From positions 4,371,001 to 4,435,000 of the forward strand of contig CP018226.1 of the NCBI GenBank assembly GCA_016865015.1: a DNA stretch of 64,000 bases. Direction: 5' to 3'. Position 1 is the stretch's first letter, and every line of letters starts with the position of its first letter. This DNA is from Rhizobiales bacterium IMCC20636 (GTDB lineage Bacteria; Pseudomonadota; Alphaproteobacteria; Rhizobiales; GCA-2746425). A model generated the notes under the pieces. That model was not told where the DNA came from. It saw only the letters and a program-made list of their open reading frames with translations, and made no database searches. Positions 8,837-10,875 of the stretch are shown one piece after another. Position numbers and translations under genes: made by a program.

Positions 8837-9274
8837 ATGCTGAAAAACATCAATCCCCTGCTTAACCCCGACATCCTGTATGCGCTGGCATCCATGGGGC
8901 ATGGCGATACAGTGACCATCTGTGACGCCAATTTTCCGGCCACGGCAATGGCCGCCAACACGGTTTCCGGTGAAGCGCTGCAATTGGCCGTGGACGCACC
9001 CACAGCGCTGGCAACCCTTCTGTCCGTGATACCCATCGACACATTTGATCTGGAAATTCCACCGGTTCAGGGCATGCAGGTGGTTGGCGCCCCGGATGAA
9101 ATACCGCCCTGCATGCAGGACTGTGCTCCGCTGGTCGAGGCAGAAGGCAGCAAGATCAGCCTTGTTGAGCGGCATGCCTTTTATGAAATCGCCAAAAAGT
9201 CATTTGTCATCATCCGCACCATCGAAGCCCGTCCCTATGGCAATCTGATCATCCGCAAGGGCGTCATTCTTTAG
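8837..9274 (+). CDS. RbsD/FucU-family sugar mutarotase
   Basis: A 145-residue RbsD/FucU family protein. The N-terminal NPDILYALASMGHGDTVTICDANFPA holds the conserved catalytic GHGD segment, and the C-terminus has the typical YGNLIIRKGVI ending. FucU interconverts alpha and beta anomers of L-fucose so the aldose dehydrogenase meets the right form, which fits the preceding SDR. The ATG at 8837 follows aaAGGAcagacacgcc; longer frames overlap the SDR and are not used. Last gene of the operon. Confidence 0.9.
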   Translation: MLKNINPLLNPDILYALASMGHGDTVTICDANFPATAMAANTVSGEALQLAVDAPTALATLLSVIPIDTFDLEIPPVQGMQVVGAPDEIPPCMQDCAPLVEAEGSKISLVERHAFYEIAKKSFVIIRTIEARPYGNLIIRKGVIL

Positions 9275-9284
9275 AGCATCCGTC

Positions 9285-9907
9285 TTGGTCAAGCTAGTTT
9301 TGGGTTCCATTCTCTATCGGCTTTGTTGAGAGTGTCTTGTGGGTCAGGAAGCCAGCTTCTCTGATATCACCTGCACCCTCATTGAGCGCAGTGGGCCGCC
9401 CCTGTCTCCGCGTCCGGCCAATTGTGGCAAGGACCGGGGGCATACTTTTTTCATGAATGATACCGGTACCGCCAAAATTGTATGTGTCACCATGGACACC
9501 GACAAAGATGGCTTTAGAGCACTTCTCGTTTATACGGAATCATTTGATGCCCCGAAACAGTTCATCCAGCGAGGCAGTCAGAGCAGCGCGATGCGGCGCA
9601 TCGGGCAAGCTGGCTAACGCAGCTGGTGGGCTGTTCCGGGGCACCGAAGGCCGGCTTTGCGCGCTCGCTGGACAGCGTTACAGCCCACTTGTGGTCGTAA
9701 GACCACCGCGTGGTCTGTGCCTTGCCAGCAAACGCGCAAAGCCGGTCAAATGCTTCCGTATAAACGAGAAGTGCTCTAATCGAGCCGGATACGGTGTCAC
9801 CGGTGAATTCGGCGGTTTCAAATGCCACTCTTCTGCCAAAGGTCTGCGCTGCGAAAACCGTGACAATCATGGTTTTTTTCTGTTACGGGCAACCATTTAT
9901 TTTCTAA
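9285..9907 (+). pseudogene. Exported DUF6636-like protein, split by a MITE and with an in-frame stop
   Basis: If the element at 9517-9776 and one TA are removed, the plus strand reads through DGF-NRAGYG and gives about 100 residues resembling small exported DUF6636-type proteins: SDITCTLIERSGPP, PANCGKDRGH, AKIVCVTMDTDKDGF, then GGFKCHSS, GLRCENRDNHGFFLLRA, with the regular cysteines. Upstream, a TTG at 9285 starts a signal-like stretch (VKLVLGSILYRLC) broken by TGA at 9327. The frame also runs on past the expected end, a TAA at 9905 lying one base out of frame. The family call is from memory; the broken state is visible. Confidence 0.5.
9517..9776. mobile_element. MITE-like 260-bp element with 31-bp inverted ends and TA target duplication
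   Basis: The ends 9517-9547 and 9746-9776 are inverted repeats with one mismatch in 31 (GAGCACTTCTCGTTTATACG inward). A TA lies on each side (9515-9516 and 9777-9778), as for IS630/Tc1-mariner insertions. Inside there is no transposase but much secondary structure: CCGGCTTTGCGCG at 9651-9663 against its complement at 9733-9745, GTGGTC-GTAA-GACCAC at 9691-9706, and CGATGCG-G-CGCATCG near 9589. It is non-autonomous and would need a transposase in trans. Class assignment is inference. Confidence 0.7.
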
Positions 9908-9946: not shown

Positions 9947-10744
9947 CTATCTCGGCAATTCAACGGCCTCTCGGGAAGAATCCCAGCGTACATTGTCATA
10001 ATGCACCACCATCGTTGGCACTTTTTTGCCATTCTCTTTCACATATCGAGAGACAAAAGAGCGATATATCCCGTAGCGAAATGTAATCCTGTCCTTCATA
10101 TTGTAGATGACCGGTCCTTTGAAATCAGCAATCTGTCGGCCGTTGATAAAGACCTCCATAAATCCGGTCTCGTCTGACCGCCAATTGGTATGAATCAAAA
10201 CATCGATCCAATTGCCTCTGGCCTTTTCCAAAGACATGAATGGCCTGTCTATATTGTAGCGAACGTCGCCATCTTTAAGATGCAGCTTGTTATAGAAAAA
10301 CAGTTTGTCATTCTCAATTCCAATCCCGACAACTTCAAATCCCTGCGGTTCCTGCTTGAATTGCCCCAGAGTGGTATTTGTCGGGCGGATATAGGGAAAT
10401 TTCTTATCCAAACGAAGAGAGTAACTCGCCCATGTTTCTGTGCCTGGTTTGATGCCGCTTTTGTCCCAAAGTTCAAATCGTTCGCGATCGCTACGGCAGT
10501 CATTTCGCCCACAATCTCCAGACCGCACTTCAAACCGCTGAGACAAAAGCCCCTCACGCACACGACTTGAAGGTCCTTTCTCTGTTTTTAGAGAATGATT
10601 GAACTGCTTTACTCGGCTGTGTTTCTGGAATTCCCCATATTTTCCGTTGCGATCAGCAATGGGGTCAGCATTCACTGGCACTATGGCCATGGAACCGCAC
10701 AACAGAACAAGAATGTAAAAAAATTTCAGTACAATATTTTTCAC
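9947..10744 (-). CDS. Secreted polysaccharide-lyase-like (heparin lyase I fold) protein
   Basis: A 265-residue exported protein. GAGGAG lies seven bases before a GTG at 10744, giving a signal peptide VKNIVLKFFYILVLLCGSMAIVPVNA. The mature part resembles the jelly-roll polysaccharide lyase family PF14099: SGDCGRNDC, WASYSLRL, TTLGQFKQEP, WIDVLIHTNW, EVFINGRQIADFKGP and a closing VHYDNVRW. Members bind or cleave acidic glycans. A longer reading frame upstream lacks a ribosome site. It is convergent with the pseudogene and has no partner transporter next to it. Activity is not certain. Confidence 0.75.
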   Translation of the reverse strand: MKNIVLKFFYILVLLCGSMAIVPVNADPIADRNGKYGEFQKHSRVKQFNHSLKTEKGPSSRVREGLLSQRFEVRSGDCGRNDCRSDRERFELWDKSGIKPGTETWASYSLRLDKKFPYIRPTNTTLGQFKQEPQGFEVVGIGIENDKLFFYNKLHLKDGDVRYNIDRPFMSLEKARGNWIDVLIHTNWRSDETGFMEVFINGRQIADFKGPVIYNMKDRITFRYGIYRSFVSRYVKENGKKVPTMVVHYDNVRWDSSREAVELPR

Positions 10745-10875
10745 CAGGCCCCTCCTCGAGGATCCGCAATCTATTTTCCAAAACCAGAAAATACCTTGAT
10801 ATTCATCGGATTGGAAGGCCACCAGGTGCAGCAGAGAAGACCGCAAAACTTTGCTGGCGATCCATCAATCGCCAA

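Follow-up and report, generated by a model that had tools for sequence, protein, structure and literature searches.

A repeated MITE-like element with a Y-shaped core in Rhizobiales bacterium IMCC20636 and other Pseudomonadota

Miniature inverted-repeat transposable elements (MITEs) of bacteria are usually viewed as short-lived deletion products of insertion sequences (ISs). Among the closest described systems are the Bru-RS repeats of Brucella, which IS711 is reported to favour as targets (PMC2266754, PMC2267715; papers identified by a PMC number are cited here from excerpts), IS711 itself duplicating the TA of a YTAR sequence (PMC2266754). In the case of the IS427 group, members of 832-865 bp are described in Paracoccus, with mostly 2-bp target duplications and one of 4 bp (PMC3281130). 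Here, we describe a 264-bp element that interrupts the remnant of a DUF6636-type gene at a TA in Rhizobiales bacterium IMCC20636, within a 64,000-nucleotide stretch of contig CP018226.1 (positions 4,371,001 to 4,435,000; hereafter the window). The element is probably non-autonomous and MITE-like, with a helper transposase of the IS5 family, IS427-like, and a long-lived Y-shaped core kept for its role in spread. Across bacterial classes, this non-coding element holds one architecture despite changes in its letters, in its ends and even in the target duplication.

Copies, fold and distribution of the element

Counted with the TA on both sides, the window element runs from TAGAGC to GCTCTA and has inverted repeat arms of 34 nucleotides with one mismatch (9514-9547 and 9746-9779); the inserted part consists of one TA plus 9517-9776, and no transposase gene lies inside it. 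In being small, having inverted ends, lacking a transposase, duplicating a TA and occurring in many dispersed copies, it is a MITE, as a preliminary description made from this stretch alone had proposed, although the family has turned out to be far older and more structured than the simple MITE pictured there. Other copies are plentiful, the genome having about 20 close to full length and many partial ones: BLAST finds 67 pieces of the element in the same genome at E <= 0.001, the 17 next-best copies spanning all or nearly all of it at 84-94% identity, and the end pattern gives 18 matches as against 0 with a reversed control. The element has a match in 16 of 61 genomes (its own included), and the segment was not found as part of a conserved gene or RNA. 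The same description had taken the family to be recent and perhaps still mobile, which is not borne out, since the closest other copy is 94% identical, a figure that does not point to a very recent burst, and no transposon with matching ends was found in this genome, in its four congeners or among the matches listed for G050. The window copy itself is fairly young, with 31 of 31 pairs of its terminal stem intact.

Folded as a single strand, the element takes the shape of a Y made up of a terminal stem (P1) and the long arms P3 and P2. No shuffled sequence was as stable, the z-scores being -14.9 for RNA of the plus strand, -15.7 for RNA of the minus strand and -13.7 for DNA. Covariation was assessed in an alignment of 47 copies from ten genomes (A1), for which 80 loci were reduced to 50 by end score and length, and L007, L013 and L124 were then removed for damaged ends. 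Compensatory changes on both sides are present at 62 of the 105 base pairs of A1. Cells with a double change number 520 against a mean of 150 after shuffling, a value reached in none of 500 shuffles, and displacing the partner by 1-3 columns lowers pairing from 94% to 33-37%. The 50 loci were picked partly by the pairing of their ends, and the figures for P1 are therefore biased. P2 and P3 were not picked in this way, and these inner arms (helices 2-8 of A1) also carry double compensatory changes, which in a wider sample affect 20 of the 38 pairs of P2.

Mutation, rather than selection, might produce such a pattern if template switching in long quasi-palindromes re-created stem complementarity in place. 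Long inverted repeats are the classical substrate for template switching, the stems here are repeats of this kind, and their sequences diverge widely yet stay complementary. However, one position of the otherwise well paired P1 stays mismatched while its letters vary, being Watson-Crick in 2 of 47 copies where shuffling predicts 12.7 (0 of 20000 shuffles were as low). In addition, pairing is lost and not regained in the old copies of this genome, as evidenced by the drop in P1 pairing as the interior diverges (Spearman -0.59 for 26 of the 31 copies in this genome, the other five having too few pairs). We therefore regard a purely mutational origin as improbable. Among the loci collected there was no orthologous pair of copies in which in-place compensation could be tested.

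The wider distribution was followed with R1, a covariance model of the P2 arm that matches the window at 9642-9749 with 124.1 bits, the window copy being part of its input. Hits were counted at E <= 1e-5, the own genome included, and R1 scored only 9-10 candidates per genome, so that genome counts are lower bounds. In the class, at least 16 of 385 genomes have a match; in the phylum sample, at least 12 of 398 do, and five of these 12 lie outside the class. Fourteen hit regions from 11 genomes were retrieved, two of which are cut by contig ends. The remaining 12 are, without exception, elements of 245-273 bp with the Y fold and with strongly paired ends of unrelated sequence. Because R1 covers P2 only, the presence of P1 and P3 in these distant elements is an independent confirmation. 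The Y architecture has thus been maintained in further classes of Pseudomonadota, although almost every letter is different.

Plasmids also carry such elements. In a search of plasmids and phages, the window element had no match, and the internal motif of the family had none in viral contigs, whereas L098 gave one plasmid match and L288 four; none was obtained with L290, L295 or the P2 arm of L172. Elements of 255-269 bp with a Y fold are present on plasmids of Thalassospira marina, Halomonas sp. PA16-9 and Azotobacter chroococcum, and the plasmid element of Candidatus Magnetococcus massalia is 206 bp long. No annotated feature lies beneath the four plasmid matches, the Halomonas record being almost unannotated. 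R1 matches only two of these four elements, those of Thalassospira marina (3.2e-10) and Azotobacter (6e-4).

A very stable fold, covariation and invariant letters outside the stems are also what a family of structured non-coding RNA genes would display, kept by the hosts for their own use and repeated only incidentally. We think this very unlikely, as the presence of the element is patchy at the frequencies given above, a TA stands at both ends, and the window copy lies within a gene remnant and matches no Rfam 15 family at E <= 1. Old copies decay, and G-T and A-C mismatches in P1 are equally frequent, at 22 to 21. Among the 12 distant loci, Rfam 15 returned one tRNA above gathering (L286) and two hits below it (L290).

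Ends, target duplication and the candidate helper

The ends differ widely from copy to copy, yet match within each copy. A scan of a named genome collection with a 27-letter internal motif yielded 89 loci found without regard to ends, and 67 of these have paired ends 162-365 bp apart, with the qualification that the end script still sought the best-pairing end; 12 others run into contig ends, and the last 10 lack a partner. Pooling these loci with the A1 set gave 114 copies, duplicates being kept where genomes are in both sets (for instance, the contigs of G050), and 102 of the 114 have TA at both sides. Copies with ends other than TACC follow a YTAR pattern, with Y before the TA in 84 of 91 and R after it in 83 of 91, and a 3-bp repeat outside the ends occurs in 2 of the 91. 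The 11 copies with TACC ends, all in Anderseniella records, instead have an exact 3-bp repeat, TAA or TTA, in 8 cases. One core is thus carried behind ends with two duplication rules. No autonomous element with TACC ends was present in 13 stretches inspected from two Anderseniella genomes.

Variants in size and arrangement were also seen. L146, L151 and L262 (1295-1658) are longer forms of 364-365 bp and L217 is one of 355 bp; in L146, extra hairpins stand within arm P2, indicating that the arms can grow by modules. One Anderseniella genome has solo terminal hairpins of ~57 bp with TACC ends and no core (L263, 628-684; L264, 656-713). At L024 (1422-1682) an element lies within an element, the left part of the outer copy being followed directly by a complete 182-bp copy. 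L131 (G003) and L026 (G000) have homologous flanks in two species with elements in opposite orientation, and are perhaps independent insertions near the same gene.

The plasmid of Azotobacter chroococcum provides a candidate for the helper. Its 269-bp element has the ends TAGGGTCTGTTGACGTTT, and two 861-bp ISs on the same plasmid share the outer 18 bp of the element, the four ends of the ISs agreeing with it at 18, 17, 17 and 16 positions, with little likeness to the element beyond them. The gene of the 861-bp IS encodes a transposase of the IS5 family (NF033580, 277.7 bits in NCBIfam; PF13340 and PF01609), and the IS has TA on both sides, preceded by C on the left and followed by G on the right. 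Taken together, the TA duplication, the YTAR preference and the shared ends in Azotobacter point to a transposase of IS5/IS427 type rather than to an IS630/mariner source. The latter had been suggested in the preliminary description and would suit the TA duplication. Duplication of TA is typical of the IS630/mariner group. We nevertheless give such a source a very low probability: the sole DDE_3 gene of the genome, the one IS630/mariner candidate tried, lies in an element with unrelated ends, targets conform to YTAR, and it is with an IS5-family transposon that a relative shares its ends.

Other candidates within this genome were tried and rejected. Its IS5-like copies have the same target (TA/CTAG), but their ends (GGCTC...) do not match those of the element. 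Isolated TAGAGC-like ends were considered as the ends of a larger transposon, and no partner was found for them.

Under the reading that we favour, IS5-family, IS427-like transposases would bind the outer ~16-18 bp of the element and mobilise it in trans, and the ends would be re-specified as the helper transposase changes. Binding would account for the matching ends over the outer ~18 bp; it would not account for the inner arms. The fold may be kept because it aids spread, whether it acts in single-stranded DNA, during transposition or replication, or in a transcript. Once inserted, a copy would decay and lose its pairing, while the lineages that go on spreading would retain the fold.

Several observations weigh against this reading. 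No orthologous empty site was found in the genomes searched, the DUF6636-type gene being absent from all four congeners examined. Two loci have copies of 192 bp in which the arms are incomplete, and several genomes have 162-bp copies with a single arm, so that a complete Y is not strictly needed. Nor does the strand test identify a single folded strand, as the ratios of G-T to A-C mismatches read on the plus strand are skewed in opposite directions in the two arms (59:12 in P3, 33:75 in P2). Reading the two arms on opposite strands gives 80:37 events, but this reading was a post hoc choice, and in P2 the fixed non-canonical pairs point in the other direction. With regard to the helper, neither this genome nor its four congeners, nor the matches listed for G050, yielded an IS whose ends are those of the window copy; likewise, inspection by eye of G000-G004 revealed no pair of TAGAGC-type ends 700-1600 bp apart, and there was none among the matches listed for G050. 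The putative helper is known from a remote relative alone, where it is recognised by its identical ends. Since no IS partner of the window family was found in the genomes searched, we infer its mobilisation by an IS5-family enzyme by analogy with Azotobacter, and consider that the window element was probably moved in this way.

The shorter copies, and the fact that the Azotobacter element and its IS have only their ends in common, are also compatible with a plain deletion derivative of an IS, in which only the transposase-binding ends are constrained and the inner hairpins are inert passengers. Such an element would not be expected to show the double compensatory changes of P2 and P3, or to retain its architecture in other classes with nearly all letters replaced, and we judge this explanation unlikely, if somewhat less so than template switching.

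A more far-reaching possibility, which we put forward tentatively, is that the Y core is an independent and ancient selfish module of Pseudomonadota, composed of an inverted pair of one structured unit, which swaps its ends to suit whichever IS5-family transposase is resident, TA- or TNA-duplicating. The fold itself would then work in spread, as single-stranded DNA or as RNA, a need known for no MITE. As to homology of the two arms, global alignment of P2 with P3 is weak (12 of 47 copies aligned, z from -0.6 to 2.7), whereas a spaced motif, CGTT-CTTG-GCCTNGC, is found on both strands in 25 of the 47 copies, with 0.005 hits per strand in the whole set after shuffling. Of the 12 distant elements, no more than 1 under strict matching, or 2 under loose matching, has the motif on both strands, and a homology of P2 and P3 is suggestive only.

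Selection on the fold, if real, would mean that such elements pass through a structural step as they spread. The family also represents a natural series of matched end pairs in which the co-evolution of ends and IS5-family transposases can be followed.

The interrupted gene and its surroundings

When the two flanks are joined through one TA, they form a single open frame, in agreement with the preliminary description. The joined frame scores 30.8 bits against PF20341 (DUF6636; Pfam cut-off 27), compared with 22.7 bits for the right half by itself and no score for the left half. Residues 14-91 of the joined frame align with profile positions 59-136, co-linearly across the joint and with no net gap, and in G039 a distant homologue runs unbroken across the joint, with 42% identity over residues 14-90. 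The N-terminal ~58 positions of the profile are missing from the remnant. Removal of the element therefore restores the frame and not the whole gene.

A TGA at 9327 had been described as a second lesion of this gene. It falls instead inside a 65-bp end of an IS110-family element (NCBIfam NF033542, 195 bits) to which three further sites in the genome are 92% identical, and is thus not a point lesion of the DUF6636-type gene. The gene is already truncated at its 5' end by IS110 insertion and deletion, which may have come before or after the insertion of the MITE. Downstream of the remnant, a neighbouring gene on the minus strand (9947-10846) matches PF14099, a polysaccharide lyase family. Features are listed in Table 1.

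Table 1. Positions of the element, its parts and adjacent features in the window
Feature	Position	Strand	Evidence or remark
Upstream gene, RbsD/FucU family PF05025	8837..9274	+	Pfam
IS110-family end, remnant, 65 bp	9271..9335	+	First letters TTAGAG resemble the outer 5 bp of a second MITE end
Left half of DUF6636-type remnant	9357..9516	+	PF20341 match, frame joining
Whole element, 264 bp with both TA	9515..9778	+	Ends, other copies
TA target duplication, left copy	9515..9516	.	
Terminal stem P1, left part (inverted repeat)	9517..9547	+	
Arm P3 of the Y fold	9548..9643	+	
Arm P2 of the Y fold	9650..9746	+	
Terminal stem P1, right part (inverted repeat)	9746..9776	-	
TA target duplication, right copy	9777..9778	.	
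Right half of DUF6636-type remnant	9777..9907	+	PF20341 match, frame joining

Insertion sequences in the element and comparison with known repeats

The element is itself a target of ISs. All three IS110-family copies seen in this genome, one of which is decayed, sit at the same place, ~5 bp inside a MITE end (L007, 338-1525; L013, 338-1525; and G000:C1 around 674430-675602, L227 and L230). This placement would be explained by a candidate bridge RNA whose guide recognises the MITE end. The terminal TA of the MITE copy L032/L229 is the exact insertion point of an IS5-family element (G000:C1:1416956-1417312).

No published description of this family was found in the literature searched, from which subscription journals were mostly absent. 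The MITEs of the IS5 family (IS427 group) resemble it in being short, in lacking a gene, and in having inverted ends, TA duplication and the YTAR target. They differ in that the family described here has a long three-armed core with covarying stems, and none of the ISs found here has ends like those of the window family. The Correia/NEMIS, ERIC and RUP repeats, as portrayed in the excerpts of PMC2229807, share TA termini, end-to-end pairing, a stable fold and interspersed copies, but are long stem-loops of ~100-200 bp as opposed to a three-way junction of ~265 bp.

Two alphaproteobacterial families can be compared by description only. The CIR repeats of Caulobacter and Brucella likewise consist of two arms joined by a linker and have TA termini, whereas, in the same excerpts of PMC2229807, CIR is ~110 bp long, with unpaired ends and GANTC in the loops; no GANTC common to all copies was noticed in the present family. 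The Bru-RS repeats of Brucella are also palindromic, and, according to the excerpted sources, measure 103-105 bp (PMC2266754), or 118 bp in the model of PMC2267715. The insertion of an IS5-family element at the terminal TA resembles that of IS711 in Bru-RS repeats. REP elements, in the excerpted account of PMC1525189, similarly receive ISs at a fixed place in the repeat, as do the MITE ends here with three of three IS110 copies nearby, the difference being that the REP target is 20-40 bp long and the target here is a MITE of ~265 bp.
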